A DNA stretch of 64,000 nt, taken from Trileptium ribeirensis (Eukaryota; Nematoda; Enoplea; Enoplida; Thoracostomopsidae). A program made the position numbers and the translations under genes. Positions 3,380 to 29,693 of this stretch are shown here, one piece after another (the first letter of the stretch is position 1; the number at the start of each line of letters is the position of its first letter). The notes below the pieces were generated by a model. That model did no database searches. It was not told the DNA's origin and saw only the letters and a program-made list of their open reading frames with translations. Location of the stretch: assembly GCA_030248225.1 (NCBI GenBank), contig JASANE010028745.1, forward strand, positions 1 through 64,000, written 5' to 3'.

Positions 3380-3414
3380 ACCTAATTGCCTTACTTCTAA
3401 AATTTTATTTTTAT

Positions 3415-4979: not shown

Positions 4980-5020
4980 GACGGGTCTCAGGCCGTTTAG
5001 ACACGGTAGAGTACTCCGTC
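4980..5020 (+). repeat. TTAGAC-family hairpin 2 (5' LTR)
   Basis: The apical CCGT-TTAGAC-ACGG (4993-5006) is nested in an outer GACGG/CCGTC stem (4980-4984, 5016-5020). The 3' LTR homologue at 28160-28200 has the same two stems and an identical loop. Confidence 0.65.
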
Positions 5021-5470: not shown

Positions 5471-5519
5471 GGCGCGGACCCACAAACCGTTTAGACACGG
5501 TGGGTTTCGGTACAGCGCC
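5471..5519 (+). repeat. TTAGAC-family hairpin 3 (5' LTR)
   Basis: The apical ACCGT-TTAGAC-ACGGT (5486-5501) is nested in ACCC/GGGT and then GGCGC/GCGCC (5471-5475, 5515-5519). In the 3' LTR (28646-28694) the outer stem lengthens to GGCGCGG/CCGCGCC. Confidence 0.65.
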
Positions 5520-6039
5520 CTGTTTTCATGTCAAATCATCAATTCAAGAAATCCTCATAAGGCAAACAAAACTCGGTAGACGCGGCAGCGCCTCCCCTTT
5601 TTACGAGGGCCCTCAATTTCAGCCCGGCCCAGACGCAAGCAAATTTCAGAGCATAAACTTTCCCTGCGAGTAGACTGCAGCTGACGCCCGGACTCGGTGT
5701 AACGCACATCACATTTATGAAATGCAGAGTACAGAGGGGTTAATGGCAAGAGAGGGTCAAACAATGGTAGCACCATGCATTTTACAAGTGAAGTCAACAA
5801 GCGGTCGGCAAGGAAAGTTCATCTCTATGTCCTGTCAGGCGGGTAAGGCAGTCCACGAGGTATAAAATTAAGCGCCAGCGGAATTGATTTTTACGCGACC
5901 CCCTCGTAGGGTTTAACCATGACTCACATCACCCGTTCGGTATATAAATATATCACACGGTGCCCTGCGACTTACCCATGCATTTTGTTGTACATAGACT
6001 ATCTTGATGATTTGAATGTAATAACGTACAGTTCACCTG

Positions 6040-6045
6040 AATAAA
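6040..6045 (+). terminator. AATAAA poly(A) signal in 5' LTR
   Basis: AATAAA is followed by gtgttagagtgt. The 3' LTR has AATAAA at the equivalent place (29191-29196), followed by atgttggagtgt. Together with the TATA box it would delimit an R region of about 2.1 kb. Confidence 0.45.
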
Positions 6046-6490
6046 GTGTTAGAGTGTGAAATTCTTAGTTGGCGAGACGTGTTTAAGGTAGTGACCACAC
6101 CTAAGCTCTAAATTTTAGACGATCGAAAGTGAACCTAAGGTTAAATTGCAATCCATAGGACCTCAACCGTACCTGGTTCAAGTAAAGCTTTCCTAGGTTG
6201 GCGAGAAAACTACACGACCCGTTAAGGCAACGCCGCAGCGGCGAATGGTAAATCCAACCTTTGGTTTAGTCTCAAAGTTCATATTTAGACTCGTTTGGTA
6301 GTTGGTGCACGGCTTTGTTCAAATTTATTCCCGCTAGATAGGGACCCTGGGATGGATCTCGAGGTGTTCCCTCGAGCTACCAGTTTAGCAGAAAACTTCT
6401 TGTCAAACCCTCAAAATTTATCGTCGGACCTAGGCTCCCGTGTATCAGACTAAAACAAGGAACCGCGCCTCCATTAAGGTTTTCAATTGA

Positions 6491-6755
6491 ATTGAGGGAA
6501 AGGCGAGTCAGCCTTATTACCTGTGAGCAGGCTTAGGGGTTGACTCTCCCTCGGGGGACCTTCGTACCACTAGATACGTGGGCCAAAATAGGGCCAGGCC
6601 GAACACCCTGGTTAACCCGCCGGCAGCTTACTAAGCTAAGCGGTTCCCTTAGGTCATCGCATAGATCGCCGGGGAGTCGTAGAAGCCGGTGTTGTCCGGG
6701 CACCACACCAAGAAAAATGGTGGTGCAGCTGGGATTCCTTAGGGCCAGAACTGGT
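6491..6755 (+). repeat. U5 structured block, first copy (5' LTR only)
   Basis: A highly conserved block of about 265 bases runs from attgagggaaaggcgag to gccagaactggtcc. It is rich in short inverted repeats, for example GCACCAC/GTGGTGC near its end. It is repeated at 6851-7127 and occurs once in the 3' LTR at 29417-29693. Low divergence between copies suggests constraint or recent duplication. Confidence 0.65.
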
Positions 6756-6850
6756 CCAAACCAATCGGGCTTTACCCATTAAGAAATCGGTAATAGCTCT
6801 GGACCAAAATAGAAAAAACTCACCAGCCTCTAGGACCAAGAATTTAAGTA

Positions 6851-7127
6851 GGATTGAGGGAAAGGCGAGTCAGCCTTATTACCTGTGAGCAGGCTTAGGG
6901 GTTGACTCTCCCTCGGGGGACCTTCGTACCACTAGATACGTGGGCCAAAATAGGGGCCAGGCCGAACACCCTGGTTAACCCGCCGGCAGCCTGCTAAGCT
7001 AAGCGGTTCCCTTAGGTCATCGCATAGATCACCGGGGAGTCGTGGAAGCCGGGGTTGTCCGGGCACCACACCAAGAAAAATGGTGGTGCAGCTGGGATCC
7101 CTTAGGGCCAGAACTGGTCCTAGTACA
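6851..7127 (+). repeat. U5 structured block, second copy, ending the 5' LTR
   Basis: This repeats the block at 6491-6755, separated from it by about 95 bases of ordinary LTR sequence. It ends at ...CTAGTACA, the last bases shared with the 3' LTR. Confidence 0.7.
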
Positions 7128-11646: not shown

Positions 11647-11750
11647 AGGACACTGGCCAGGAGAAGGGAGGCGTCGGGAAGTGAGCTGTCCTGATTGCCC
11701 TAGCTCCGTTCAAAATTATAATTTATGTGTAGGACCAAATTCGAACAGGG
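11507..11750 (+). repeat. About 121-124-bp tandem duplication at the Gag/Env-Pol junction
   Basis: ccggggaagac recurs at 11507 and 11631, and ctccgttcaaaatt at 11583 and 11704. The offset is 1 modulo 3. The protein of unit 1 in the gag frame (DCPNSVQN) resembles that of unit 2 in the next frame (DCPSSVQN). The duplication alone can therefore explain why the reading frame changes here. Confidence 0.7.
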
Positions 11751-14700
11751 TTCGGTCCCTAAGTGTAGGAGCCGTAGGATCCGACCAGGTCGGGAGCCGC
11801 GGCTATTGTGTGTCGTTGTATAGTAGCTCCAACCGGCAGGTGAAAATGTGTGCGGCCGACTGCGACCGGGTCGGAGCCGGTATGTTTGAATCGTGTGTAG
11901 AACCGGGAGAAGAAACTGTGCAACATGTGAGCGAAACGGGTTTAGGGTTACACGGAGACAATGCCGAGCCGAGTGCCGACAATATCACAAGCATAGAGAA
12001 TCATGATGATCGAGCTAACATTTGTGCAATTGTGAAACCTAGTGATGAGAAAGTGGAACTTAGTAACCTAAAGGAGAATAATGTAGCCAAGGAGGAACCA
12101 ATAGTAACCAGTAAAAGCTCGAGAGTTGTGATAATAACGCCCATAGTACATGACAGGACCGAGAAAGCAAACATAATGGCAACCCAGCAACAGGAAAACA
12201 GAACGGAGATTGTCACATGTCAGCTAAGTACAGAAGCAGCCTGCGAATTAGGAATCAACCCAACCGGATTGCCGGTTGGCTTAACGAAAGTAATTGAACA
12301 AGCACTGAAATTGCCCGCATCGTTGGGGAGTGTACCGACACTTGGCCAGGTCGGTATGGGCCCTGCAATTAACCACACGGACACACATTTGATGTGCACG
12401 TCGGATCAAGGGGATGCACGATTATGTAGGCAACAGATATTGGATATTATATTGAACAAATTGCACGCATTAGATAACACCAGTGAAATAGTAGAGCCTT
12501 TGATCTTACAGGGACTACCTAACGCGGAGCGAATTACGTTGCTGGGGTCGGATTCAGAATTCGTGCCCACAGTTAAACCGGAATGTCATGAAACATTTCC
12601 TCATTACATTCTCGCACTGCCTAAATTACGTTTTGGAGAAGAACGAGCACCAATAAGAACGCTATTTTATCGGAGGGTCATAGCTGTGTCGGAGCGGATA
12701 TGCCATGCCCACCAGTTGCTCAGAGCTCGGGTAGCTGGAACGGCCCGAATCGACCGACGGCGGGACGCTGCCGTTTTGTCAGGGCTGTTGGGGTTCGCAT
12801 CTCCGTTCCTACACACTATGCCGGGGATACACGTTAGCAGTAGCATGTTGAAACACCTGGAGGGACTCTTGGAGATCGTTGCCCGGGTCATTAATTCAAT
12901 GAGCATCACGCAAGCAATCACTGAGGTATACCGATCCCAAATCCCTATTCTACAGACATGCATCATGTGCGAGGAAAGACACAATATAAACTTCATGCCT
13001 GGAGAGGAGTGTGCGTTCACCACCTACCATGGCGAATGGGACTACACTGGGAATCTGTCCGCCGATTATGGAACTATTAGGAGAGATGGGTTAGTATCCA
13101 TTCGCCCAAGCCGCACACAGGGATTGCACACAGCCTATGAACTCATAGCGTATAGGGAAGCCAACTTGAAGTTTTTAGAAACCATAGTAGGTGCACCATA
13201 CTTGTTGGATAACCTAGTCACGGAATTCGACGAAACCGGACCCAAAGTTCCGGTGCTGTCAATACAACACATCGTATACGCTATAATGGCTAACGCGCTT
13301 TTCAGGGTAGTGAGTAGCAGACCAAAGCGCGAAGAACTATTGTATTTACGACTATTGTGGTTACGTAAGCCCGCTCAAAATATTTGGCAAAGTGACCCAA
13401 TGGACGACATGGACCTAGTTCCAACCCCGGATAATGACGCTGACATAACATTCATTGACGAAGAGGAACTTGAAAGTGAGTTGAGTGCAGCACTCAGTGA
13501 CGCTGGCCCAGACGACTTCGACATGCCCGCGACTGAATCACTCGACTTCGACGACCTCATCTCTGAGTTAAGTTTCTCCGTGGACAATGAGACTGTCAGG
13601 CATGAACACGACACTACCGTTGATAGAGGAAACCAGACATCACCGACCGGGTCGGTACGGTCTTCTTCCAACGGATTAGGACAGAGAGTAAAAGCTGCAG
13701 TCGGATTGCTGAACCAAGGAACCAAAATACTGGGGTTACTAATAACTTTGCTAATTCTCCACAATTTAGGGCAAACCCGCGCTATTGCTACGCCATTCTC
13801 AGACCAAGTAGCACGCTTAGGAGCCATGGTAAATCAACAGGTGGGCACGCTGATCGAGCCACAAGGCTTAGTGATTACTGCTTCGCAATCCACCTTCCTG
13901 CCAATAATATTACGGTTATCCTTGGATGGATTACAACCTAGTAGGCAAGCAACTGGTATGGCATGGTGTGTATACACTCCTCGGGGTAAGCCATGTTTGG
14001 GGAATTGTTGTCCCAACCCAAATTGTACTACCATGCCGGATTTACAACAAAAAGTACAAGAATTAGAAAGAGAATTAAGGAGCACCTATCAGGGTGTATT
14101 AGACACTAGTTACTACATGGCATTAATGCGCGAATATTGCGAGGCGAATGCCCACCTTTGTGAGCAACCAAAGGTCCGAAAGAAACGCTTTCTCGCAGCG
14201 CTAGCAGGAGCCGCAGGTGTAGTAACAGGTTTTCTAGGTGTAGGTGTAGCGTTCACTAATGCGGTACATCTTAAGGATCTTAATAAGCAGGTACTCGCGC
14301 TCTCTAAGGAAATGAGAAACACCTATAATGTCGCCTATGGTAACTCGCGAGCGATAATGAAATTAACACACGCTAACGAGGAACTGTACTCATTTCTACA
14401 TCATGAAATGCAAGAGGTAGTTACCATGATTGATCAGGTACGGTGTCAAGAGCAACGCTACGTTACAGAGGTCCACCGCGAGCTAGTTAACCATATGTTT
14501 CGCACCAGCCTTAGGTCCTCGGTTGACGCCGTCATGGAAGCCATGATGAGCGGTCAACTATCACCGAAAGTAGTGGACGCATCCACGCTCAAGAACTTAT
14601 TCCAAAAGAACTCGCAGATAGCGCAGACAATCCTAATACGTGAACCAGCGCTGGCTTACCAATTTGGGCAAATATACCCAGTACATATCGATCTAGGGTC

Positions 14701-15388
14701 ATTTAAATTTGCCTTTATATTGCGAGTTCCCTTAGTCACGTCGGATGATGTCCGACCCTACTTTCGAATTTACAACGTTGGCTGGAACGTTCCAGAGCGC
14801 AGCGCCCACATGAAATTACCATTGCCTGACTACGCTACACGGATTGAACGAGCACGGTACGAAGTACTTAAACTACATGCATGTAACACGCGACCAGGTA
14901 TTGCGTTCTGCGAAATACACGCATTGGCAACGGACCATACATCGCGTTGTTTGGACTGGATCATCATGGGCGAGGACGCTCCTGATGAAGCTCGTCAACT
15001 CTGCAAGAACAGTGCATTGGTCGGGCCAATGGCTAATCACACCGATGTTTACACCACGGCACAAGGAGTCTTAATCCGAACTGCTGAACGCAAGGCCGTC
15101 GTCTCCAAGAAGAAACATCTTAGTCACGTTACCCGAGGAGAGACGATTGACATTGCAGACAACGGAGTTTTGTGGCTGTCGCACAGTAACTACACCCAGC
15201 TCGTGGTCGGACCACTTATGCTGGCTAGCACACTAGACGCGCAGGAAGTCACGGTTCACATTGGACCCAACATCACCGTCCACGACTTTCCGGAAATACC
15301 GCTCAAACCGATTGCTTGGAGCTCATTGGAACACGCCAAAGCAACGAACTTACAAGTGCAGCAAATCGCAGACGAGCAATTGAAATAG
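11543..15388 (+). CDS. env: Envelope-like fusion glycoprotein with long unknown N-terminal region
   Basis: A 1281-residue frame overlaps the end of gag by about 100 bases. Residues 1-720 match nothing I recognise; about 620-690 are strongly acidic. A hydrophobic run at about 725-745 followed by small residues looks like an internal signal peptide. A Cys-rich segment (CLGNCC at about 815) follows. R-K-K-R at 879-882 is a furin-type site directly before an Ala/Gly/Val-rich fusion peptide starting at F883. A coiled-coil region and a LSPKVVD...FILRVPLV segment resemble Baculo_F/errantivirus envelopes. It should mediate membrane fusion. The frame stops at TAG just before the membrane anchor, which continues in the same frame downstream. 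Position between gag and protease is exceptional. Confidence 0.7.
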   Translation: METFGTRVSPIVLTPFKIRKRMCTLVSLEAGEDRRGHWPGEGRRREVSCPDCPSSVQNYNLCVGPNSNRVRSLSVGAVGSDQVGSRGYCVSLYSSSNRQVKMCAADCDRVGAGMFESCVEPGEETVQHVSETGLGLHGDNAEPSADNITSIENHDDRANICAIVKPSDEKVELSNLKENNVAKEEPIVTSKSSRVVIITPIVHDRTEKANIMATQQQENRTEIVTCQLSTEAACELGINPTGLPVGLTKVIEQALKLPASLGSVPTLGQVGMGPAINHTDTHLMCTSDQGDARLCRQQILDIILNKLHALDNTSEIVEPLILQGLPNAERITLLGSDSEFVPTVKPECHETFPHYILALPKLRFGEERAPIRTLFYRRVIAVSERICHAHQLLRARVAGTARIDRRRDAAVLSGLLGFASPFLHTMPGIHVSSSMLKHLEGLLEIVARVINSMSITQAITEVYRSQIPILQTCIMCEERHNINFMPGEECAFTTYHGEWDYTGNLSADYGTIRRDGLVSIRPSRTQGLHTAYELIAYREANLKFLETIVGAPYLLDNLVTEFDETGPKVPVLSIQHIVYAIMANALFRVVSSRPKREELLYLRLLWLRKPAQNIWQSDPMDDMDLVPTPDNDADITFIDEEELESELSAALSDAGPDDFDMPATESLDFDDLISELSFSVDNETVRHEHDTTVDRGNQTSPTGSVRSSSNGLGQRVKAAVGLLNQGTKILGLLITLLILHNLGQTRAIATPFSDQVARLGAMVNQQVGTLIEPQGLVITASQSTFLPIILRLSLDGLQPSRQATGMAWCVYTPRGKPCLGNCCPNPNCTTMPDLQQKVQELERELRSTYQGVLDTSYYMALMREYCEANAHLCEQPKVRKKRFLAALAGAAGVVTGFLGVGVAFTNAVHLKDLNKQVLALSKEMRNTYNVAYGNSRAIMKLTHANEELYSFLHHEMQEVVTMIDQVRCQEQRYVTEVHRELVNHMFRTSLRSSVDAVMEAMMSGQLSPKVVDASTLKNLFQKNSQIAQTILIREPALAYQFGQIYPVHIDLGSFKFAFILRVPLVTSDDVRPYFRIYNVGWNVPERSAHMKLPLPDYATRIERARYEVLKLHACNTRPGIAFCEIHALATDHTSRCLDWIIMGEDAPDEARQLCKNSALVGPMANHTDVYTTAQGVLIRTAERKAVVSKKKHLSHVTRGETIDIADNGVLWLSHSNYTQLVVGPLMLASTLDAQEVTVHIGPNITVHDFPEIPLKPIAWSSLEHAKATNLQVQQIADEQLK

Positions 15389-16663
15389 GTCATCGACTTC
15401 CCATACATCACTACAACTAGAGTAGCACCCTACCTATGGATGCTCATCGTGCTAGCAATTGGTGGCGTAGGGGCAATAGTTTACTTCAAGAAGAAAGCTG
15501 GTTTCTGCCCTAAGTGCATAAAAGGGCGTCTACAGCGTTGGTGGCAACAACGACCATGCGCTCGGGCGGAACTAAGACAACCCGAGTTGCATGTTAAAAC
15601 GGACAATGAATATGGCATTACAACCACGCCTCGACCAACGGTTTCAGCCCCAGCTGCTTCTGCCGAGCATCTCGAATTACGAACCGTGAGTCCTCACCGC
15701 TCCGCTCGAATAAATGCTACTACCGAGGACGAAAGCGTTGTCCTGGTAGAGCCCACGGAACTATTCGCTGTATCTGACCGATCTCAGCGCAGGGGACATC
15801 GCACAGTAGCCTACCACCGACAGGTCAACGCAATACATCATATGGACGCACCCCTACTCATCAATGCTTTCGTATACCGCACTCCGGTACTGACATTAAT
15901 AGATACCGGGGCGGACGTTTCTATAGTATCACAATACCTGGTTAGCAAGCTAGGCCTCCAGCCGCAACCTGACGATTCTACTCGAATAGTATCCGCCACC
16001 AAACAGGAATTAGCACTAGACGGTAGCATAAGTGTTCCTTTGTCGATTGGATCCATAAAGGTACAAACAGAATTCTTTGTCACTAAAACTGCACCTTATC
16101 ACTGCATTATAGGAACAAATTTTATGTCTCAATTGCCAAAATGCATCATAAATTTCAAAGAGCGTTGCTTAGAAATAGCAGTAGATGAGGAAGAGGCTAG
16201 AATACCTTTTGCAGGATTAGAACGGTATGACCCGCCATTAATCGCAGTAATGTGTAGAAAACTCACTACTATAGAACCAAACACTGAAACATTTATTAAT
16301 GCGATCCCCGAAATAGCTGAAACAGGAGTAGGACCGGCACTATTTGTGCCTGCACCAGAAATGGTAGACATCGCAATGGCTCACGCATTAGTACTAAGGA
16401 GCCAAAGAACAATACCAATTGCAGTAATCAATTTCGGAAACACACCGGTCACTATTTATGCCGGACAAACAATAGGTCACATGGAGGTAATGATGAACCC
16501 CAACGTGCAGTTCCTGAAAGACACAAACAAAAATTTGATTCGATATGAGGAGCACAAACCGGCGAAGCAATTAAATAACATCACCACACACCCTGAAAGA
16601 ATTATTCAACATATCGAAGCAGGAAAAGGTCGATTGACCATGAAAGAGCTCAAACGATCTTGA
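15389..16663 (+). CDS. pro: Env membrane anchor and tail fused to aspartic protease (start of Pol)
   Basis: This is the same reading frame as the preceding Env frame, separated only by the TAG at 15386-15388; the first ATG is at 15440. It begins with a strong transmembrane segment (YLWMLIVLAIGGVGAIVYF) and a KKK stop-transfer. A basic, Cys-containing tail of about 120 residues follows, then a retropepsin domain with LIDTGADVSIVS at about 15898 and IIGTNFM near 16110. So the envelope's cytoplasmic tail leads straight into the protease. Retropepsins cut polyproteins as dimers. The frame ends at TGA 16661-16663 and RT continues in another frame, most simply a small indel in this copy. Confidence 0.75.
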   Translation, partial: VIDFPYITTTRVAPYLWMLIVLAIGGVGAIVYFKKKAGFCPKCIKGRLQRWWQQRPCARAELRQPELHVKTDNEYGITTTPRPTVSAPAASAEHLELRTVSPHRSARINATTEDESVVLVEPTELFAVSDRSQRRGHRTVAYHRQVNAIHHMDAPLLINAFVYRTPVLTLIDTGADVSIVSQYLVSKLGLQPQPDDSTRIVSATKQELALDGSISVPLSIGSIKVQTEFFVTKTAPYHCIIGTNFMSQLPKCIINFKERCLEIAVDEEEARIPFAGLERYDPPLIAVMCRKLTTIEPNTETFINAIPEIAETGVGPALFVPAPEMVDIAMAHALVLRSQRTIPIAVINFGNTPVTIYAGQTIGHMEVMMNPNVQFLKDTNKNLIRYEEHKPAKQLNNITTHPERIIQHIEAGKGRLTMKELKRS

Positions 16664-17820
16664 GCAAGATAGATTTCGATAAGACTTTATTGTCCCCATT
16701 TGAGTTAAAACAATTGAAAACTGCGATCGCTGAGAATGCAGACGTCTTCAGCACGCACGATTTTGACCTAGGGCGCTACACTGAACATAGGCACCGCATA
16801 GAGACCGGAGATGCTAAGCCGATTAAGCAAGCACCGTATCGACTAGCACATTCCTTACGCGAACCGCTTAGAGAGGAACTAAATAGTATGCTAGATGCGG
16901 GACTAATTTCACCATCAAGCTCACCTTGGGGATCACCAATAGTGTATGTAACCAAGAGTGATGGCTCACTCCGGCTCTGTGTGGACTTTCGGAAGGTAAA
17001 CACAGTAGCAGAACAGGATGCATATCCATTGCCTAGGATAGACGACATTTTAGGATGCCTCCGAAACACTAAACTAATGTCTAGCTTAGATTTAAATAAG
17101 GGCTTCTGGCAGCTAGAACTTGACCCAGAAACAAAGGATAAGACATCTTTCGTAACAGTTCATGGACAATACGAGTACAATGTCCTACCGTTTGGACTGA
17201 ATTCATCCCCAGGAGCTTTTCAACGTTGCATGTCCATGATTTTAAAGGGGCTAGAGTGGGAAAAATGCTTGATTTACATAGATGACATACTGGTATTTTC
17301 ACCAACGTTTGAAGATCACCTAGCAGACCTAATTAGGGTGTTCGATCGTTTTCGCAGGGCAAACTTAAAACTAAAACCATCAAAATGCCACTTTGGCCGA
17401 GGCAGTTTAAAGTATTTAGGACACATAATTAGTACAGAAGGTGTCAAGCCTGACCCAGAAAAGGCAATAGCAATTGAGGAATTCAAACGTCCAGAGACGT
17501 TGAAGCAGCTCCAAAGTTTCTTAGGACTAGTGGGGTATTACCACAAATTTATACCAAACTACTCAGACATATGCGAACCACTCAATGAATTAAAACGCAA
17601 GGATGCAGTATTTAAGTGGACTCCTAAGTGCGAGGACGCCTTTAAGAAGTTAAAACAGGCACTACTAGATGAACCCGTGCTAGTGCACCCCGATTTTACA
17701 CAGCCGTTTATTTTACAGACGGACGCTTCAGGATACGCAATGGGCGCAGTGCTCTCGCAGAAAACTAATCAAGGCCTCAAACCCATTGCATACGCAAGCA
17801 AAGCTCGCAATCGAAGCTGA
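16660..17820 (+). CDS. pol: Reverse transcriptase and start of RNase H
   Basis: A 386-residue frame overlaps the protease frame by four bases; the TTG start is only the frame limit, not a likely real start. It holds the Ty3/Gypsy RT core: HRIETGDAKPIKQAPYR, WGSPIVYV, LSSLDLNKGFWQLELD, FGLNSSPGAFQR and the catalytic YIDDILVF near residue 205. The connection and RNase H start (LQTDASGYAMGAVLSQ) follow. It copies the RNA genome to DNA and degrades the RNA strand. The frame breaks in RNase H right after AYASKA; compared with family members roughly a dozen residues plus a frame change are missing there, so this copy should be inactive. Confidence 0.9.
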   Translation: MSKIDFDKTLLSPFELKQLKTAIAENADVFSTHDFDLGRYTEHRHRIETGDAKPIKQAPYRLAHSLREPLREELNSMLDAGLISPSSSPWGSPIVYVTKSDGSLRLCVDFRKVNTVAEQDAYPLPRIDDILGCLRNTKLMSSLDLNKGFWQLELDPETKDKTSFVTVHGQYEYNVLPFGLNSSPGAFQRCMSMILKGLEWEKCLIYIDDILVFSPTFEDHLADLIRVFDRFRRANLKLKPSKCHFGRGSLKYLGHIISTEGVKPDPEKAIAIEEFKRPETLKQLQSFLGLVGYYHKFIPNYSDICEPLNELKRKDAVFKWTPKCEDAFKKLKQALLDEPVLVHPDFTQPFILQTDASGYAMGAVLSQKTNQGLKPIAYASKARNRS

Positions 17821-20701
17821 AGCTCTCGCGATCAGATGGGCAGCGCTACACTTCAAGCATTATTTAGTAGGGCACAAGTTTCATGTCGAAACCGACCACA
17901 AGCCGCTAAGAGCCCTGTTTGACAAGCCGCCCAGAAACTCACGCTTATCGCAGTGGCGCAGTGAATTACTACTTGAATTCGGAGGATTTGAAATACAATA
18001 CAGGACAGGTAGAGAGAACGGCAATGCCGATGCTTTGTCGCGGGATCCTAGGTACGACCCATCCCTAAGCGAGGAACCAGGAGACACGTATGAAATATTA
18101 ATGATGGGTCGGGGACGACCCACCGACCCCCGTCCACCAACAACCTGTGCAGCATGGGATCAATCGCATCTGCCGTATCCCGTACGCACGGTGACACCGC
18201 TCGCAACCGGGGCGCCAACAGCTGTAATGGGAAGCCCCATGGCTCCCCCAGGGCAGCCGAACCCCGAAGCAATTCCGTCACAATTAGTTCCCGACACGCA
18301 GATCTCTACAGTACCCCCTGCAACGCTAATCCAACAGGCAGCCACGCTAAGCGCAATTCCGATCCGGATGGATCCAGGAGAAACACCAGTAATGTCAGTA
18401 CGTACCACAACTATCTCGGGTTCTGGAGTCGGACCTCAGGCTCGAGGATCCAAGAGGCCACACCGGCCTGAATCGGAAACCGCAGGACTAAGAGCGACTA
18501 CACTACCCACTGAACAGGAATTTGATAGACTCATGAAATTAATGATGCACTATGAAACAGAAATACTACCGACCGTTAGGATCGAGGACGCACAGGACAC
18601 TCACGAAAACATATACTTGCCGTTCTTTTCGGATCTCCCAGATTTTAATTTAGTACGACTCCTACCCTATATACAACGAAATGACCCAGAACTGGGTCCA
18701 ATTTGGTGGTATTTGTATAACAAAACACGGCCCAGGGCCGAGCTAGGCGCACTAAGAATTGAAATGCGAGCTCATTACTTCGAATTAGCTCAGGATACTA
18801 AGATACTGTACATGCACCCATTACAACCAGGGGACATAAATTATAAATTGTGCGTCCCAATTACATTAGTACAGCAAATACTCAAACATGAACACAACAC
18901 TCTGTATGGAGGACATCCTGGCCGTGATCGGCTAATAGCAAAATTGAAACAATTTTATTACTGGAAAGGTATGTCAGAACACGCACAACAATGGATCAGG
19001 CGATGCACTCTATGCCAATCCGCGAAGGACCCGATTTCTCGGATAACCACCGGATTGGGCAGGGTTCCGTTGGCAAATCAACCAATGTATCGTGTATTCG
19101 TAGACATACTCGACATTCAGGTTAGGTCGCAAGCAGGCAATCGCTACGTTATTGCATTTATAGATCAATTCACAAAATTCGCAATAGCAGTAGCAATAAG
19201 GCACCAGGATGCACACACTGCCGCTCACATATTTTTGTATGAGGTAGTTAACAAGTACGGAGCTCCCAGGGAGCTATATTCTGATAGAGGAGGTGCTTTC
19301 ACCGCACACATGTTTGAAAGCCTGTGCCAGGAAATGCACATATTTCGGCACATGAGTTTAGCTTACCACCCTCAAGCAAATGGTGAGATTGAAAGATTTA
19401 ATAGGACATTATTATATTTACTACGAGTAAGCGTACCGCAAGATGACCACCATTCATGGGATATATCATTACCATTTTGTGTAATGGCTTATAATTCTTC
19501 GGTACACACAGCCACCAAATATCCACCATTTTTACTAATGCATGGATTTTACCCTAGGTTACCCGGAGAATACGACACGCATAGTGCAGCCACAGGATAC
19601 ACTGGAGCTCACTCATATAGAGCCAACGCGCAGCGCTGGATGGCTTCTATTAGGGAACGCGCATACCAATCCATGAGAGCCGCCCAGGAAGTAAATCGGC
19701 TAAGATACAATAGGCGAGCTCGCGAACCACGCTATCAAACAGGCAAATTAGTCTGGGATTATAGACACGATACCACGCCAGGAACATCTAGGAAACTTAC
19801 GCCTCGTTGGTGCGGACCATACCAAATACTAGGGATCACCCCGCCATGCATGCGTGTAAGAATGCATTCAAATCCGGAAGGTATGGCGCATGTAGTACAC
19901 CTTAATAGAACTAAGCCGTGTTTTAGAGCTTTAGATCCGGTACCCAACGTAGGAGATTGGCTAGGCCAAGTGCACGCTTCTGTTCTAGAAAGGGGCTTAA
20001 ACGAACCAACCCAACGAATCATCGCTGATAGGGATTTTGTGACAGAAATAGAACCCGTAGATGAGGTAGCAGTGCGCACAGTAAGAACAGCAGTCAGTGA
20101 TAGTTCGGACACCGAAAGTATAGAAATGGGTGACCCCAATGATCCTAACTTCTACCGCCGGACATACGCAGAAATCGAAGCCGAACAAGCAGCAGTGGAG
20201 CACATTGAGTATCGGACGGACGACTACGAACCGCAGAATCCAAGGACAGTCAGGAATCGGATTCCACTGACTGATCCAGATAGAGAAATAGAACCCTCTT
20301 GGCCACCAATATCGCAGGAACAGGTTACCAGCCGCGAGGCCTTTTCATACATACCAGAACCTGGTAGCCGAGATACGCAGGTAGAATACGGACGACATAC
20401 TGTACCAGTGACCACGATAGAACGAATAGTGGCTACCAGCGAGGAGGTTCCATTCGGCGTACCGACTGTAGATGTTGGAATACTCGAAGCACAACACTTC
20501 TACCCAGCGGACCTTACGCTGTCTACTACGCCACGAGGAGCTTCCGTGGAATTGTCGTACCTGGACCATACACCTCAGGGGATCTACGCTACGCAATCAT
20601 GCTCGCTGCTCAGGACCATCCATTATTTCAGTCACGACCGGCTGAACACATTATGGCATCACGGCTACGAGTACCAATGGAGATGGCAACTCAAACTGTA
20701 G
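17786..20701 (+). CDS. pol: RNase H end, integrase and C-terminal extension
   Basis: A 971-residue frame continues RNase H (EAEALAIRWAALHFK, ETDHKPLRALF, NADALSRDP). A Pro/Thr-rich linker of about 150 residues follows, unusual at this place. Integrase follows: zinc finger (HEHNTLYGGHPGRDR...CTLCQ), then the DDE core with D in FVDILD, D in YSDRGGAF and E in HPQANGEIERF. A GPY/F-type module (RWCGPYQIL) closes the canonical protein. Integrase inserts the DNA copy into the host genome. About 250 further residues follow with no recognised domain. The frame ends at 20701 and coding-like sequence resumes in the frame at 20599, so a small indel near 20590 is likely. Confidence 0.9.
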   Translation: MHTQAKLAIEAEALAIRWAALHFKHYLVGHKFHVETDHKPLRALFDKPPRNSRLSQWRSELLLEFGGFEIQYRTGRENGNADALSRDPRYDPSLSEEPGDTYEILMMGRGRPTDPRPPTTCAAWDQSHLPYPVRTVTPLATGAPTAVMGSPMAPPGQPNPEAIPSQLVPDTQISTVPPATLIQQAATLSAIPIRMDPGETPVMSVRTTTISGSGVGPQARGSKRPHRPESETAGLRATTLPTEQEFDRLMKLMMHYETEILPTVRIEDAQDTHENIYLPFFSDLPDFNLVRLLPYIQRNDPELGPIWWYLYNKTRPRAELGALRIEMRAHYFELAQDTKILYMHPLQPGDINYKLCVPITLVQQILKHEHNTLYGGHPGRDRLIAKLKQFYYWKGMSEHAQQWIRRCTLCQSAKDPISRITTGLGRVPLANQPMYRVFVDILDIQVRSQAGNRYVIAFIDQFTKFAIAVAIRHQDAHTAAHIFLYEVVNKYGAPRELYSDRGGAFTAHMFESLCQEMHIFRHMSLAYHPQANGEIERFNRTLLYLLRVSVPQDDHHSWDISLPFCVMAYNSSVHTATKYPPFLLMHGFYPRLPGEYDTHSAATGYTGAHSYRANAQRWMASIRERAYQSMRAAQEVNRLRYNRRAREPRYQTGKLVWDYRHDTTPGTSRKLTPRWCGPYQILGITPPCMRVRMHSNPEGMAHVVHLNRTKPCFRALDPVPNVGDWLGQVHASVLERGLNEPTQRIIADRDFVTEIEPVDEVAVRTVRTAVSDSSDTESIEMGDPNDPNFYRRTYAEIEAEQAAVEHIEYRTDDYEPQNPRTVRNRIPLTDPDREIEPSWPPISQEQVTSREAFSYIPEPGSRDTQVEYGRHTVPVTTIERIVATSEEVPFGVPTVDVGILEAQHFYPADLTLSTTPRGASVELSYLDHTPQGIYATQSCSLLRTIHYFSHDRLNTLWHHGYEYQWRWQLKL

Positions 20702-21719: not shown

Positions 21720-21767
21720 CTTACCCCATACTAGCACGTACTTCTGACCATGCAAACAAACAATCAT

Positions 21768-21868: not shown

Positions 21869-23140
21869 ATGCAGCGAGCCCACAGTACAAACAGCATCAA
21901 TGCCCGTCTGATCCCAAAGGGCGTGCGGCACGTACCAGTGGCGATCGATGGGCACAAATTTCCTCAGGTGCCACAATATCATCTGGACCGGGAGGGACGA
22001 TGGGAATTCATCTCGCTCAACAGCAAACGATGGAGTCACCTGTCCAACGAATACCGCATGGAGGACCGCTTCGAACATGACGGACGGCGCCTCTCCAGCG
22101 TCGCCGAGCACTACCACCTCGGCGTCCTGGTGTTATTGCGGTACGAGGACGAGGCCAAGGAATTGGGCGAGATCGACAGCACGCCAACCGAATTGCAACT
22201 TCGCAGCATCGCCCTGCAGCGACAACTCCCGCACAGTGCTCGACGTTGGCACATGTCGTACCGAGCACACCTGCTGCGACCAATCCTGCTGGCAAAGTTC
22301 AGCATAGACGAGTACACTGAGGAGCTGGAGAAAACCGGCAGCCGGCAACTCCTCAACGATTCCTGGGACAACTTTTGGGGCACTGGAATGCCCCCGGCCC
22401 AGTGCAGCAACTACCGGACAATATGCCACAACGTCACTGGCCGGTTGCTCGAAGAAATCCGAGCGTTCCATCGCGACGGATTTGTTCGCTGGCCACGAAC
22501 CATCATTGTCGGCGACGAGCAGGCCCTGCCGCTACTCGAAGTAGCCGACGAGCGTAACTGGCTCGTCCTTGCCTATCCGGGGCTGACGATGGTCGAGCTA
22601 CTGAAATGGGCCAACGCACTATTGACGCCGCAGACGGACTGCGTTTTCGTCCTTGGCGGTTATGACGATGTGTGGCTTAAACCGCGGAAAGCATTATCGC
22701 CAGGTGCCTATTTCAAGCGTATCAAACGGCACCTGGGAGTATTGGATCGGCGCGCCCGGGAAGATGCCGCCATCTACGTTGCGTCGCCTCCCCCACATTG
22801 GAACGCCAACAATTACACTGGCGACACATGGGGACGGCAATTCCGCACGCGTAAGACGGAACTCACCCTCAGCCACCAATCGCTCCGTAGCGTAATCATG
22901 CCACGATGGCCGGCGCCACTCATGGAACCCGAAGCCTGGGACACGGTCGGGCCGTTCAACCAGGGTGAGGACCGGCGGCGTTGGAACAAGCCCGTCGTAA
23001 CTCCAGCGTGCCACCACGAATTGGTCGCTTGGGTGGAGCAAAATCTCCATTGCGCAGATATTATCCGGCGGCTTATGGAGCGACCACCGCCAAAAGAAGA
23101 ATATTACGACTATTCTGGTGATGAGGAGGCGAGTATGTAA
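21869..23140 (+). CDS. NADAR-A: intact NADAR-like + SGNH-like accessory protein
   Basis: A 423-residue intact gene lies at the start of U3, with its ATG directly after an acceptor-like attatag. Residues about 45-200 match the NADAR pattern: LSN at 58-60, VAEHYH with Glu80-His81, ILLAKF at 139-144, EKTGSRQLL at 154-162, DNFWGTG at 167-173 and HNVTGRLLEEIR at 187-198. NADAR proteins act on ADP-ribose or ribosyl N-glycosides, and some remove ADP-ribose from guanine. Residues about 207-395 resemble an SGNH hydrolase fold: IVGDEQAL at the GDS position (Ser replaced by Glu), LGGYDD at the GxND position and HH near the end, so this half may not be a working esterase. It is paralogous to NADAR-B just downstream. 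Host-defence evasion or nucleotide salvage are guesses. Confidence 0.75.
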   Translation: MQRAHSTNSINARLIPKGVRHVPVAIDGHKFPQVPQYHLDREGRWEFISLNSKRWSHLSNEYRMEDRFEHDGRRLSSVAEHYHLGVLVLLRYEDEAKELGEIDSTPTELQLRSIALQRQLPHSARRWHMSYRAHLLRPILLAKFSIDEYTEELEKTGSRQLLNDSWDNFWGTGMPPAQCSNYRTICHNVTGRLLEEIRAFHRDGFVRWPRTIIVGDEQALPLLEVADERNWLVLAYPGLTMVELLKWANALLTPQTDCVFVLGGYDDVWLKPRKALSPGAYFKRIKRHLGVLDRRAREDAAIYVASPPPHWNANNYTGDTWGRQFRTRKTELTLSHQSLRSVIMPRWPAPLMEPEAWDTVGPFNQGEDRRRWNKPVVTPACHHELVAWVEQNLHCADIIRRLMERPPPKEEYYDYSGDEEASM

Positions 23141-23398
23141 AGAGGGGAGGGGGCAGGTATAGGCAAAGAATTGTTAGAGCAGTTTAGAATGTTGGGAACA
23201 GGGAAGAAAACTAAAATTTTAAATCATCCGGAGAGGATGAAAAATTCGAGTCACCATACAGGCCACACTCAACCAAAGCAGGCGTACTAGAATTAGGATG
23301 CTAGGAATACATAGTTCTCGTAAGAGGAGCACACGTAACCCGAAGCGCTGCGACAATTAAGTAATTAACAAGCATACTTATTTAAATTCCCTTTACAG
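23141..23398 (+). other. Spacer between NADAR-A and NADAR-B
   Basis: This non-coding spacer of about 258 bases aligns with positions 13-259 of the 5' LTR. It ends in the splice-acceptor-like ccctttacag before the NADAR-B ATG. Confidence 0.5.
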
Positions 23399-24666
23399 AT
23401 GAGCACCAGGAATGTGGACGTAACGCCAAACCGAAAATACGGCGGACGATTGCCAGCAGTCGGACCGTACGCTCCGCCGGAAATGGCCCTATTCCAGCTA
23501 CCAACGATTCCAGTCTACCGGGTAGACTTGAACAAACCATTCGCCGCATTCCTGTCACATGGCACGGACTGGCCAGAGCTGTCGAACATGCACAAGACGT
23601 CAGCTCCATTCAGCAACGACGGCGTGCTAGCCAACACCGCGGAGCGACACTATCACGTCCAGGTGCTGGCACTCCTGGAACACCACGACTCCGCGCGTGA
23701 ACTTTTGGACTCGACCGACACACCCCTGCAGATCAAATCACGAGCACGGGTGCTCAAAGACGAGCTGATTGATTACGTCACCAGCGCTCGCCTTAAGCCG
23801 CTGTTGGAGCATATCATGCGCCCCATCCTACTCGCCAAATTTGCCATCCCGGAGTACGCTCACGTACTCCAGCTCACTGAGGATCGGCAACTGCTCGAGG
23901 CATCAACCGACGCTTTTTGGTGCGTCGGACGCTCCAACCAGCAATTGCAAAGCAATGAGGCACCCGGACGCTGCCATAACGTCATGGGACGCTTATTAGA
24001 GGAGGTACGTGAATGCCGCGCCACCGGAAACGTGCGATGGCCCCGAACAGCCATACTAGGGATGCATTGGCACTACCACTGCTGGAAATGGCCGATGACA
24101 ACAAATGGCTGGTTAACGGATGGCCGGACACCAGCCTGGCGCGGCTTGTCCAGACCGCCAATGCCATAGTCACGCCACAGCTTAACTGCATCATCCTGCT
24201 AGGTGGCTACAACTACATCTACAGGAAAGTGCCTCTGGAGCAGCTCCATGCGACAAACCCAAACGCGGCATTTAAAAAGGTAAAGCGCCACTTGGGAGTG
24301 CTGTCAAAGCGAGTTGCACCAACAATATCAATCATCATGTCACCTCCTATTCCGCGTTTGGTCGCCACCAATCAGGAAGCAGCGTCCTGGACGGTCGAGC
24401 TAAAGAAAATTTTAGCCAACCATCGCCAGCGCTACAATACACTCCATAACGTGTACATTCCGACGTGTCCTGTTGCGTTCAATACACCCGACGCGTGGGA
24501 GCGGGACGAGCCACACATGGAGTGGGGCGAGCGACCACAATTTCGCGAGCCGATGGTATCTAATTACTGTCGTAGCAATCTGCGCTAGTGGATGACCCAC
24601 CTCGTGCGCGATGCCGAACTGGGGCGCTTGGCACCCTCCATAGATGGTCGCTGGTGCACTGCATAA
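23399..24666 (+). pseudogene. NADAR-B, broken copy in the 3' LTR
   Basis: This is the homologue of 260-1526. The NADAR-like half is open (FSNDGVLANTAERHYH, IMRPILLAKF, the Leu-Thr-Glu-Asp-Arg segment, CHNVMGRLLEEVR). A one-base deletion in a G run near 24060 shifts the frame exactly at the GD motif that starts the SGNH-like half. That half then reads on from 24013 to 24588 in the other frame (GDALALPLLEM, LLGGYNYIYR). A TAG at 24586-24588 replaces the Glu codon of the 5' copy, and the original stop is at 24664-24666. Different lesions hit the two B copies, so both were once functional. Confidence 0.7.
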
Positions 24667-25724
24667 CGGTAGGTTAGCGGCTAACGCGAGCGAGGAGGAA
24701 ATGAGAGCAGGAAGGGAACAAGATCATCAGTACGATTTGTTAAGAGATGCATTGAAAGGGGTAGTTAGGAGCACGAAACGCATCTGAGGTAACAGCAGTG
24801 AGAAATGCAGCTAGGCAGTAACGGCTTAAAATACTAGTCACGAGCAATGCAGGTAGGCGTCATCGATAAGACTAGGAGTAATAAATGCAATCTTATTAAG
24901 CCGAAAGTACCAACTACAGTTAGCGAATTCGACATGGCGAACACCAAGGAACCAAGTCTTAAAGAAATTAAAATAAATCAAATGGGTAGATGCGATTTCC
25001 AGTTAACTACTTGGAAATTTCTAAAAAAACCCCTGGGTCTGGGCATAACCGGCAGCCGGGTCCGTTCCTAGGGCGAACCAAATAAATGCTCGGAGGTACG
25101 TGCCAAGAAGATAGTGTATTATAATATATGTATAGTTGTTACTGTTGTAATAATACTGCAAAAATATACATAACGTTTAGAACGTTGGGAAAAATTTAAA
25201 TAGGACAAGCAAGATACATTTTCAAAAAACTACAATATCAAACTTAAAAATATTATAAACCATAAGGGAAAACTTCCAAAATTACCGAAAATAAAGGGAG
25301 AAGGGACGCTTTTTTGGTGATAACCAAACAAGTTGAACGTCCTTCTACCCTCGTTTTAACAAAACTTCTAACAAATTTTTGGAAAATTACTCTAAATTTA
25401 GTACATAAGGCCCAAACGGGCTAAATTTTTCAAATTCCACGTTCAAACGGGCCAATTTTTCAAATTGCGCATTAGTTTTACTTAATTTACACCAAGGGCT
25501 GTACATCACATGAGATTAATCATACAAAATTTTCACTTTATTCTCATAGCTCAACAAATCAAACCTTCTACCATAAGTAAGGAGTCTATAAAATCCAAAA
25601 AATTTTTTAAGAGATGTAACGGCCCGAAATTTCAGGGATTTCAACGAGATATTCAACTAAGGAAAAACCGGTTAAACTAAGGTCAAGAAAGTGGGAAAAT
25701 GGGGGTGACGGGCGATCGGATACC

Positions 25725-25824
25725 GGTGGAGTGTGGCTCAGGTATTATGTCATGTACCATTGTATCGTCGTTATAAAAATAAAATGTATCACGAATGTAA
25801 TTTGTCGTATCGTCACGCTCCACC
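25725..25824 (+). repeat. Long-range stem in U3 (3' LTR)
   Basis: GGTGGAGTGTG (25725-25735) pairs with CACGCTCCACC (25814-25824) using one G-U pair. It is homologous to the perfect stem at 2540/2628. Confidence 0.55.
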
Positions 25825-26594
25825 CGCCCGAGGTGCACGGGGTGATTTTGGCACCAAAATGGAATGCTTGTGACATTAAGCAGGGTATCCGGTCGAACCT
25901 AAGTGAATTCGATGATGATATGTGCATTTATAATATTGAATGTATGCGTAATGAAATGTTATATTATTTTAGTTTATGTGGTAAAAGAGTGGAGCACCGC
26001 GTGTCCGGGTGGGTCTGGGTAGCATATGGGATCTTTTAAGTTAAAGACTAATGGGGAAACTTTTGTAACATTTCTAATCTCGAGGACCCATTCTGGCATG
26101 CGGTTGCGGAGTAATTGAACCAATAAATAAAGTGAGCAGCTAAATTTTGGAGATAGGAAAGCGACAGAACTCAGCTAAAGCGTGCATTTTGTAAGGCCTA
26201 CTTAAAAGCGAAATTTTACTAGTTTTTGGACATCTAAGGCCAAGTGGGCTTATCACATCGTTAATAGGGTTCCCTAAGGCTCCAAAATTTCGCAATCGGG
26301 CCAAGCTGGCCTTTACCGGTAAGTACTTAGGGACCCCCAACAAAGCGTTTAAACACCCATTTTTCAAAGTCTCCTATCTCCGCAGATATAACCAAAACTC
26401 CCCAATTTTTCGGTCTCTGCACCGCCACGGGGTCTTACCCTAACTATCTAGTCGAAAACCGGGGCCTCGTAGCTTAACTGGTCCGAGTAGGACCCTAATA
26501 ACCCTCCCGGTACACCAAAAGTTTCTATCTTTAGCTCATAAAACGGCCTCTAACAGGCCGCCTATTGGTCCTACACTTAAAATTCTACTTTCAT

Positions 26595-26647
26595 CAGTAG
26601 GCGACCAGCCAGAGTATGAACCTGGTCCCGCCCCCGGCCGCCTACTG
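26595..26647 (+). repeat. 9-bp stem hairpin (3' LTR)
   Basis: CAGTAGGCG and CGCCTACTG are identical to the stem arms at 3415 and 3459 of the 5' LTR. Confidence 0.55.
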
Positions 26648-27094
26648 TCTTGCGTTGGTCCGCAATCACTAAAAATATGCTCAAACCTTGGTACGACTTC
26701 GGCGCCCTGGGCCCTCGTATATTTCCTTGCCTAAAATTTCTCACGCCTACCAGCACGAGGTTTAGTCGCTCTGTCGCTCGTGCCCCTCTGTATCTTTAGC
26801 CGGCTATATGTTTTATTAATGACCCTGCTGGCTCTTTCGCTCTGTTGTCCTGCCGACCGACAGCTGCTGTTGTTTATGTACGAGCGACTCTTGCCATCAG
26901 CGTTGGCGATCTGCTTTGTAGTGACCAGAGCTCGGTATCATTGTTTTTGTATGTGTTGCGATAAATTGTTTGTTTTTATACAGTCGCTAATATAAAATTT
27001 GTAAAATTAAAATGTTATTCTAGACCAGCTCGTGAACGAGACAGAAGGACCCGGGGTAAGCGTCAAGAAAAAAGGGAGGGGGTAGGGACACTGG

Positions 27095-27101
27095 TATAAA
27101 A
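27095..27101 (+). promoter_or_regulatory. TATA box of the 3' LTR
   Basis: TATAAAA lies at the place equivalent to 3900 in the 5' LTR. In the intact element it marks the start of R near 27125. Confidence 0.5.
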
Positions 27102-27242
27102 GAAAAAGGCCTGACGCAGCGTCGGAGCCAATCGAGTTGTATCACAGACCAAGTGGTCTGTTTTTGGAGTCGGGCGGTTGTCGCCCTTTTAGCTGTAAGG
27201 TTTTAAATGATTTTGGTTTTTCGCTTGATTTGTTTTCCTTTC

Positions 27243-27286
27243 CTAGGGGTGTCTCCTACTGTGTAGCACAGGACGGAGCCCCCCAG
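27243..27286 (+). repeat. Leader hairpin (3' LTR)
   Basis: Nested stems include CTCC/GGAG and CTGTG-tag-CACAG. It is the counterpart of 4048-4096, but the splice donor beside it is degraded here. Confidence 0.5.
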
Positions 27287-27741
27287 TGACTCTTCAAAGT
27301 GTCGAAATTTCGTTGGCTGGGGCTGCTCTTGCGCGTGCGGGCGCGTCCGACGGATGCTCCGTGCACTCGCAAGCGCAGTCCCAACAAAATCGAGAAGGTC
27401 ACGCGTTAAGCTGCTCGCAAATCGCAAACGCTCGACTGGTTCCCCGCTCGCCGGGTCGCCATGTTTTAATTTTAGACCCGGGGGGGCGAGTTTTAGTGAT
27501 GTGAAAGGGTAAAGGGGATATGAAGTACACAGGAAGGGGGAAAGATACAGGGACACGGGAGGGGTAAGGCGTTTGAGAAATACTAAGGACTCGTAGCGTG
27601 TTGACCTGGAGGCAGCCGCTTAGGCAGAATATAACTGAGATAAGTAAGGATCTGCGCTAGGTTTCCCGTCAAAATTGTTGAGCATTTGGTCCCTGAGCGT
27701 TTCTTTTTATTGTTCCTCGCTACGTCGTTTTAAAAAAACTC

Positions 27742-27777
27742 CAGTCTTCCAGGCCGTTTAGACACGGTAGAAGACTG
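27742..27777 (+). repeat. TTAGAC-family hairpin 1 (3' LTR)
   Basis: CAGTCTTC (27742-27749) pairs perfectly with GAAGACTG (27770-27777) around CCGT-TTAGAC-ACGG (27754-27767). Confidence 0.7.
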
Positions 27778-28159
27778 TAATAATTTGGATCAACCATTCT
27801 AAAACCCCGCCGCAAATTGGCGCTGTAAAACAATTCTAAATTTTTCAATGACTTTCAAGAGAAAATGGAGCCTCTTTCGACTCGTGCTCCATCAGTTTTC
27901 GAAGTCGTAGCTCGATTCGAGCCTAAGTCATAGGAAAATATATGAGAACAACTGCAGGTCACACGACTTAAAGACCCAGTCATTGGGTAAGTAGAGCGAG
28001 TTGTCCGCTCGGGACGGACGCGGTCATTTGCACGCGAGAAACGTTTCAAACAAAAAATTAAGAATGGAACCCCTGACGCTAGCCCCAGAAATTCGAGCTC
28101 TACTCTGAGATTCGCTCCGCTCCGAACAAAATTTCAGTCAATGAACCCCAAAAAATCCA

Positions 28160-28200
28160 GACGGGTCTCAGGCCGTTTAGACACGGTAGGGCACTCCGTC
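28160..28200 (+). repeat. TTAGAC-family hairpin 2 (3' LTR)
   Basis: GACGG/CCGTC outer stem around CCGT-TTAGAC-ACGG (28173-28186). It is 419 bases after hairpin 1, against 424 in the 5' LTR. Confidence 0.7.
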
Positions 28201-28645
28201 ACGTATTTTTACAATAGACCAACCATCGATGGGTCGATACGGCTGCTCCACAGGGAGTGACGTATCAGGACCTTTCGTGCGTTGTTTTCCCCACCTCTCG
28301 CGATCTTGCAAATTTACTATTCTAACCATGCAGGGGTGTCCGAAGTGTTTTCAAACTTAAATCATTACAGCTTTCTTTTGGTTCTCAAACGAAACATTTT
28401 ACTGAGGGCCGCGGCAGCACGCGCCCTATTCGTGCTTGCAAATGACTGCGGACCTTCGCCAGCAAGTCACAGACATGCAGAGGAGCGTATCATCAAAATA
28501 GGAAATGAGACGGAGTCAGCTGCAGCGTATAGTCGAGTCAAATATTAAGGCAACTCTTGTGCTCGCACCCGTTAGTCGAGCGACGACCCTGAGGAGGACT
28601 CAAAGCATTCGTGTTCCCCAAACTTTATGTGAAGGAAAACTTATA

Positions 28646-28694
28646 GGCGCGGACCCATAAACCGTTTAGACACGGTGGGTTTCAGTACCGCGCC
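28646..28694 (+). repeat. TTAGAC-family hairpin 3 (3' LTR)
   Basis: GGCGCGG/CCGCGCC outer stem, then ACCC/GGGT, then ACCGT-TTAGAC-ACGGT (28661-28676). Confidence 0.7.
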
Positions 28695-29190
28695 CTGTTT
28701 TCATGTCAAAATCATCAATTCAAGGAATCATCATAAGGCAGACAAAACTCGTGAGACGCGGCAGCGCATCCCTCTTTCGATAACGACCCGCGTTGTAACC
28801 TGACCCTGGCGCACGCAGAGTTGATAACAAACTTCCATTACAAGTAACCAGCAGCTGACGTCCGGCCTCAAGATAAAGTACGAGACGGAGTACAAAGTGA
28901 AAAGAGGTTAATGGCAGGAGAGTGTCCAACGGCCTGGAGCTTTTTAAAAGCGAAGTCAACAAACGGTCGGCGAGGAAAGTTCATTTCTGCACCCTGTCGG
29001 GCGGGTAAGGCAGTCCCCAGGATACAAAACGTAGGCGCAAGCTGAGCTGATTCTTAGGCGGGGCTTAATAAGTATTCACATCACCCAGCATTTATACTTG
29101 ATAAGGGTGCACTGCGTGGTACCCGCAAGTGTCGCCGTATGTAAATAAGTTGTATACGTTATAATTACATGAGTGCTTATGTATTGTGCG

Positions 29191-29196
29191 AATAAA
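29191..29196 (+). terminator. AATAAA poly(A) signal of the 3' LTR
   Basis: It is positioned like the AATAAA at 6040 and followed by a similar GT-rich stretch. Genomic RNA would end shortly after, near 29215. Confidence 0.45.
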
Positions 29197-29416
29197 ATGT
29201 TGGAGTGTTCGGTAAAGCTTTAGGCGATATGTTTCCCGTAATAGTCATCTGATAAGCGTCCATCGCGTCAGGCAAACGGAGTTTCAAAGTTATAAAAGGA
29301 AACAATTATTTCAGTGGTCTTACAAACCAAATCAGGCTTTACCCATTAAGAAATCGGTAATAGCCTCGGATCCAAACAAGAAAATTCACCACCATTTAAG
29401 ATCAAGGATTCAAGTA

Positions 29417-29693
29417 GGATTGAGGGAAAGGCGAGTCAGCCTTATTACCTGTGAGCAGGGCTAGGGGTTGACTGTCCCTCGGGGGACCTGCGTACCACTA
29501 GATACGTGGGCCAAAATATGGGCCAGGCCGAACACCCTGGTTAGACCGCCGGCAGCCTGCTAAGCTAAGCGGTTCCCCTAGGTGATCGCATAGATCACCG
29601 GGGAGTCGTAGAAGCCGGGGTTGTCCGGGCACCACACGAATAAAAATGGTGGTGCAGCTGGGATCCCTTAGGGCCAGAACTGGTCCTAGTACA
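29417..29693 (+). repeat. U5 structured block, single copy (3' LTR)
   Basis: This is the counterpart of the two blocks at 6491 and 6851. It forms the end of the element, and host-like AT-rich DNA starts immediately after it. Confidence 0.65.

Follow-up and report, generated by a model that had tools for sequence, protein, structure and literature searches.

The window analysed here, 64,000 nucleotides from the start of a contig of 74.6 kb (JASANE010028745.1) of the nematode Trileptium ribeirensis, was found to contain a giant Ty3/gypsy-like long terminal repeat (LTR) retroelement carrying two sister genes, gene 1 and gene 2, in each of which a NADAR-fold domain is followed by an SGNH-fold domain. 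In the copies examined, both were internal accessory genes of an element of about 27 kb, and this anatomy is nearly certain. The open copies of both genes were found to be under strong purifying selection. The molecular role is a bet made on sequence, and a rough probability of 0.45 is given to the reading in which a selected accessory pair, lying after pol and before the 3′ LTR at the site of retroviral env, acts mainly as a ligand-binding complex. The two paralogous NADAR-SGNH-like genes had been noticed in an initial annotation made from the letters alone, and their kinship and both domains were confirmed, whereas the position that it gave them inside the LTR was not.

The true LTR was defined from both ends of the element on contig C4609 (C-numbers denote contigs of the genome and L-numbers loci cut from it; the assembly, GCA_030248225.1, comprises 687 Mb in 20,229 contigs), and this was the one LTR pair examined. 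Its two LTRs were found to be 96.2% identical over 3650 columns, both starting with TGTAAC. A tblastn search of 10 kb of C4609, comprising the 5′ LTR and the 6.1 kb upstream of it, found neither gene, and both genes were found to precede the 3′ LTR. The window has the start of this LTR at positions 2439 and 25615 and its end at 7127 and 29693. The pol gene was found directly 5′ of gene 1 in six of six informative loci, the seventh locus starting 43 bases before the gene, and a pol tail was likewise present at L072. None of the 61 gene-1 matches of 70-100% identity, and none of the 40 gene-2 matches, was paired with another match to the same gene on the same contig and strand at a distance of 12-32 kb. 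Among 40 of the 41 places matching the LTR end, a spacing of 12-32 kb on one contig was found at C4609 only. A gene-1 match was present just upstream on the same strand for 29 of the 40 gene-2 matches; in the remaining 11, gene 1 may be broken, may lie beyond the contig or may be missing from the scored list. Because no LTR-spaced gene pairs were found, the 5′ LTR of C4609 is without the genes and pol lies directly upstream, the genes are single and located between pol and the 3′ LTR in the copies examined.

The initial annotation, in which the 23.1-kb repeat was read as the LTRs, had placed the genes in U3; this would here mean LTRs of 6-9 kb and expression like that of sag of mouse mammary tumor virus. 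Within the window alone, this is suggested by a second gene-2 copy upstream of gag, but it is contradicted for the copies examined by the gene-free LTR pair, by the missing gene pairs and by the repeats of the window, since the left and right repeats (28-5977 and 23156-29124) are only 70% identical, as against 87-93% between the right repeat and three other copies (L050 over 1.2 kb, L062 and L068). A U3 position is therefore hardly tenable, and the likeness to sag falls with it, the genes being outside the LTR. At its left end, the window opens with the final codons of a further gene 1, and the stretch before the first LTR was found to align with the gene-1 tail and the gene-1/gene-2 spacer of seven loci, followed by a translation (260-757) that matches NADAR in Pfam (E 0.002). 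The most plausible reading of the window is a pair of elements arranged head to tail and sharing one LTR between them.

Gene 1 was found to be an open frame of 423 codons, in agreement with the intact gene of about 420 codons first proposed, and gene 2 is broken over two frames in the window. The two proteins are 35-36% identical, as measured with four open gene-2 copies from other loci, and form one clade (100/100), as expected if the pair arose by duplication of one gene encoding both folds. Other copies of the element also carry the gene: 101 gene-1 matches were found in the genome, including 61 at 70% identity or more, 38 at 53-57% and two small fragments. The 38 places at 53-57% identity lie each on its own contig, cover about 410 amino acids and are often open (e.g., C4863:78909-80138); they probably represent gene 1 of a sister element family. 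At C12138:35124-37490, two gene-2 matches on the same strand, 1.5 kb apart, represent a local duplication.

The ratio of nonsynonymous to synonymous divergence (dN/dS), a check proposed at the outset, was calculated over 19 loci including the window, ten of the sampled copies having been chosen for the absence of stops in gene 1. Broken frames were excluded (three for gene 1 and ten for gene 2, the window's own gene 2 among them), and the ratios therefore describe the surviving open copies. In 16 open copies of gene 1, the mean dN was 0.080 and the mean dS 0.80, with a ratio of 0.101, and in nine open copies of gene 2 the values were 0.023, 0.68 and 0.034, respectively. The ratios were nearly equal on the NADAR and SGNH halves (0.103 and 0.091 in gene 1; 0.035 and 0.031 in gene 2). 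Ratios of 1.37-4.32 were obtained when these codon alignments were read in the two wrong frames, and six copies of the C-terminal pol tail gave 0.119. The trinucleotide YAG was found directly 5′ of the start codon in all of the copies shown (16 for gene 1 and 14 for gene 2), and a pyrimidine-rich stretch was found to be conserved before gene 2. Because this acceptor-like YAG abuts both start codons, each gene appears to be translated from its own spliced or trans-spliced messenger RNA, the splice donor being presumed. LTR elements sometimes capture host genes, and the pair could accordingly be a captured passenger useless to the element; this is very improbable, given such low ratios at mean dS of 0.80 and 0.68 in dispersed open copies and the conservation of the paired arrangement and of the acceptors. 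Since selection has kept both genes, they are likely to be of use to the element, though probably by other means than a textbook enzyme reaction.

The NADAR similarity of the pair was recovered by profile and by fold, the fold being that of NADAR/YbiA. The Pfam profile PF08719 (gathering cut-off 35.1 bits) was passed by gene 2 (53.3 bits for the first frame in the window, 52.7 and 52.9 in two open copies), whereas gene 1 remained below it (29.1 bits for the window copy, 27.7-32.5 bits for three copies). The NADAR domain of gene 1 covers approximately residues 50-204. The predicted model was of low confidence in this half, and its fold search gave no NADAR chain among the 50 matches listed, which mainly span residues 201-401. 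The NADAR domains of gene 1, gene 2 and locus L024 all scored far below the cut-off of the NCBIfam model NF053876.1 (NADAR family anti-phage protein).

The pocket was compared over 16 gene-1 copies, nine gene-2 copies and 14 other NADARs of the same genome, using the numbering of the P. nicotianae NADAR. In the available portion of PMC11543638, E43, K50 and E125 are tied to hydrolysis, and the equivalent of K50, K95 in E. coli C7, is described as essential there for efficient hydrolysis. At position 43, Glu was conserved in gene 2 (9/9), and Ala or Thr was found in gene 1 (16/16), with a Glu one place later. Position 50 was occupied by Val in all nine gene-2 copies and by Val, Ile or Ala in the 16 gene-1 copies, followed by the presence of Glu at position 125 in gene 2 (9/9) and of Asn, Val or Ser in gene 1. 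D130 and W133 were conserved in 25 of 25 copies of both genes. K75 and R79 were apparently kept in gene 2 (Lys and Arg, 9/9), although the local alignment is uncertain; among 13 other NADARs of the genome, Lys was found in nine and Arg in six at these positions. Y84 and D86 were lost in both genes (Glu/Asp and Ile in gene 2), D86 being variable in the other NADARs too. In those other NADARs, E43 and K50 were both kept in all 13 covering them, and E125 in 10 of 14. Judged from these alignments, gene 2 appears to keep the acidic pair for the distal ribose and the Asp and Trp near the pyrophosphate, without the phosphate-binding lysine, and gene 1 appears to be without nearly all ligand contacts. 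Because the E43/K50/E125 set is incomplete in both genes, a NADAR fold is claimed here and a hydrolase is not; the proposed reversal of ADP-ribosylation keeps the two acids of gene 2 in its favour and is weakened by the loss of the lysine and, in gene 1, of all three residues.

The SGNH-like domain was likewise upheld as a fold but not as an active site. The predicted model and its fold search placed a three-layer SGNH fold at approximately residues 205-403 of gene 1, and gene 2 gave a weak Pfam match to Lipase_GDSL_2 (E 0.04-0.05). Located by motif rather than by residue-level superposition, the catalytic Ser of block I was found to be replaced in both genes, with GDE in gene 1 (16/16) and GDA in gene 2 (9/9), followed by the presence of GGYDD in gene 1 and GGYNY or GGHNY in gene 2 in the region of block III. 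No clear equivalent of the block V DxxH was found by eye. The esterase serine thus appears to have been lost in both genes.

Fuller pockets were found elsewhere in the genome. A Pfam search, the control for which gave a signal in 3 of 14 genomes, returned 2317 NADAR candidates, and all 150 that were scored were above the cut-off. In 25 of the 30 loci fetched from these 150 (L011-L040), NADAR adjoins an A32-type ATPase open reading frame (ORF), as found by tblastn with two Pox_A32-matching ORFs from L011 and L014. A third context was found at L027 and L039, where NADAR lies beside an ORF of superfamily-1 helicase type (AAA_11/AAA_12); L016, L022 and L033 are cut by contig ends and showed neither neighbour. 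L024 also encodes a TBP domain. The ATPase neighbour suggests that the A32-bearing loci are Polinton-like elements. Given these neighbours and the residues kept, NADARs with E43 and K50 appear to ride in elements that look DNA-virus-like and are separate from the retroelement. In the homologue search, the NADAR from an A32-bearing locus matched two proteins, and no homologue elsewhere was found for gene 1 or for gene 2; one weak match to the NADAR part (34%, E 3e-6) was found in IMG/VR, among the candidates only.

Such strong selection on proteins that have lost catalytic residues points to binding, assembly or regulation, and the two proteins may thus be mainly binders rather than hydrolases. 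Most likely, a complex of both would recognise an ADP-ribose-like or nucleic-acid ligand, or the ribonucleoprotein of the element, through the NADAR pocket of gene 2, and the dead SGNH domain would dock lipids or proteins. Serious rivals are a weak hydrolase and an accessory of membranes or of the ribonucleoprotein. The latter, in which the SGNH-fold half targets membranes or particles and the NADAR half has no part beyond assisting in folding or RNA binding, is doubtful. Such targeting was proposed for the ZfL2-1 ORF1p (PMC3905857) and considered for the GDSL ORF3s of LTR elements in rotifers (PMC5408684), but these LINE (long interspersed nuclear element) and LTR precedents retain their active-site residues, whereas both serines are lost here. 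The near equality of dN/dS on the two halves also speaks against it, as does the lack of a transmembrane-like window in gene 1, where coiled coils were not looked for.

A counter-defence enzyme is unlikely. In this case gene 2 would strip ADP-ribose from guanine, or cleave another N-glycoside, in the RNA or cDNA of the element against a host ADP-ribosyltransferase, with gene 1 as a regulatory pseudo-enzyme. The residues kept in all nine gene-2 copies (43, 125, 130 and 133, less surely 75 and 79), the dN/dS of 0.034 and the fact that other mobile elements of this genome carry NADARs with E43 and K50 are consistent with it, and phage NADARs were suggested to protect phage DNA (PMC11125620, portion available). 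It is opposed by the Val at position 50, by the replacements at 84 and 86, and by the host genome, in which no DarT family match was found (a profile search with a control signal in 1 of 14 genomes; other types of guanine ADP-ribosyltransferase were not searched). The counter-defence idea of the initial annotation suits the fuller-pocket NADARs of the other elements better than the retroelement pair. An arms race, which is improbable, would join these findings: the host would mark foreign nucleic acid with ADP-ribose, its mobile elements (with A32-type ATPase, helicase-linked and the giant retroelement) would for that reason have recruited NADAR repeatedly, and the retroelement pair would be non-hydrolytic readers or decoys, gene 2 binding and gene 1 regulating. 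If true, this would represent a conflict over nucleic-acid ADP-ribosylation in an animal.

NADAR in Gypsy elements and SGNH ORFs after pol in LTR elements have been reported; the comparisons below rest on the available portions of the papers cited. In Ectocarpus, the Pol protein of a Gypsy lineage carries a YbiA-family NADAR domain in its N-terminal region, and a NADAR-like ORF1 is present in Tx1 LINEs of Crassostrea gigas (PMC12477816). These are NADAR-bearing retrotransposons too, but here two separate genes follow pol, the domain is fused to SGNH and pocket residues are lost, a distinction drawn from descriptions and not from a comparison of sequences. In the Vesta LTR retrotransposons of bdelloid rotifers, the GDSL/SGNH esterase ORF3 is likewise an accessory ORF after pol; its invariant residues are intact, and NADAR is not mentioned in the main text (PMC5408684). 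The ORF1p of ZfL2-1/CR1 (PMC3905857) shares the SGNH fold in a retroelement protein, but it is the first ORF of a non-LTR element and an active esterase with a coiled coil. E. coli YbiA (2b3w), the P. nicotianae NADAR (8bau) and the DarT1-NADAR antitoxins (PMC11543638) share the fold and, with gene 2, also the acidic pair, the Asp and the Trp; the pair differs from these enzymes by the loss of the key lysine in both genes, by the fused second domain and by its retroelement setting. Planarian Burro (PMC6431247) is also giant and Gypsy-like, with extra domains and an Env-like segment between gag and pol, for which the likeness here was judged by eye. Pfam, searched with E up to 1, matched none of its BIR, BCL2, ankyrin and MATH domains (MATH_TRAF) in five large ORFs of the window, and NADAR is not among the domains that PMC6431247 lists in the text available.

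No earlier report of a NADAR-SGNH fusion in a retroelement was found among the papers listed by the literature searches, which covered no preprints and few subscription papers; of those listed, PMC12477816 alone appeared relevant. As far as these searches show, the fusion of both folds, its duplication within one element, the selection on the pair and the loss of pocket residues are new. Accessory genes after pol reveal what an LTR element must obtain from its host or deploy against it, and here a duplicated fusion kept at dN/dS of 0.03-0.10 shares a genome with fuller-pocket NADARs in elements that look DNA-virus-like. The purpose of animal NADARs, a question raised in the portion of PMC11125620 available, becomes testable with a few recombinant proteins.

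The features of the two elements are given in Table 1. The interior of the main element (7128-25614; about 27.3 kb with both LTRs) was found by Pfam to contain a gag-like ORF, protease, reverse transcriptase/RNase H and integrase, with a 1281-aa ORF between the first two, and the order and families of the pol domains are those of Ty3/gypsy. In other copies, the pol frame extends to about the place of 21719. The 1281-aa ORF contains RKKR followed by a hydrophobic Gly/Ala-rich stretch, with the look of a fusion glycoprotein by eye; its PDB matches were unrelated (all E 0.76 or worse), and no NCBIfam or Pfam family match was found. The end of the first LTR was found to be tandemly duplicated, 6476-6757 and 6838-7120 being 95% identical. 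The possibility that the LTR consists only of a 370-bp unit (6757-7127) was ruled out with 30 LTR-end loci cut out of the 41 matches, the window's own included, as more LTR-like sequence precedes the unit in 29 of the 29 others. When C4609 was inspected by eye, neither a target-site duplication nor a tRNA-complementary site following the 5′ LTR was clearly seen.

Table 1. Features of the two head-to-tail retroelements in the window
Feature	Position	Strand	Basis
Inner 3′ part of another, adjacent element of this family (final gene-1 codons, gene-2 remnant ORF 260-760, non-coding stretch)	1..2438	+	alignment, Pfam
LTR between the two elements, TGTAAC...GTACA	2439..7127	+	repeat comparison
gag-like ORF with CCHC zinc knuckle	8806..11646	+	zf-CCHC E 2.2e-4
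1281-aa ORF placed after gag and before protease; resembles Env by eye	11543..15388	+	sequence motifs by eye; no family match
Aspartic protease ORF	15440..16663	+	gag-asp_proteas E 1.3e-9
Reverse transcriptase and start of RNase H	16660..17820	+	RVT_1 E 5.6e-32
RNase H and integrase	17786..20701	+	Integrase_H2C2 3.9e-18, rve 6.3e-13
3′ splice acceptor-like YAG abutting gene-1 start codon	21866..21868	+	YAG in 16/16 copies shown
Gene 1 (intact), with a degenerate NADAR and an SGNH-fold domain	21869..23140	+	ORF, Pfam, model, copies
3′ splice acceptor-like YAG abutting gene-2 start codon	23396..23398	+	YAG in 14/14 copies shown
Gene 2, disrupted in this copy (frames 23399-24169, 24013-24588): NADAR and SGNH-fold domains	23399..24630	+	end set by open copies
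3′ LTR, TGTAAC...GTACA	25615..29693	+	comparison with C4609 LTR ends

Downstream of the retroelement, the stretches 51605-52678 and 60409-63151 were found to contain a PHD-finger ORF and LINE-like endonuclease and reverse transcriptase ORFs. Elsewhere in the genome, a decayed COX1-like stretch (C17193:64554-65603; L009/L010), the only COX1 place found, reads best with AGR codons as Ser, a weak indication, by eye, of an invertebrate host, and is probably a nuclear copy of mitochondrial DNA.
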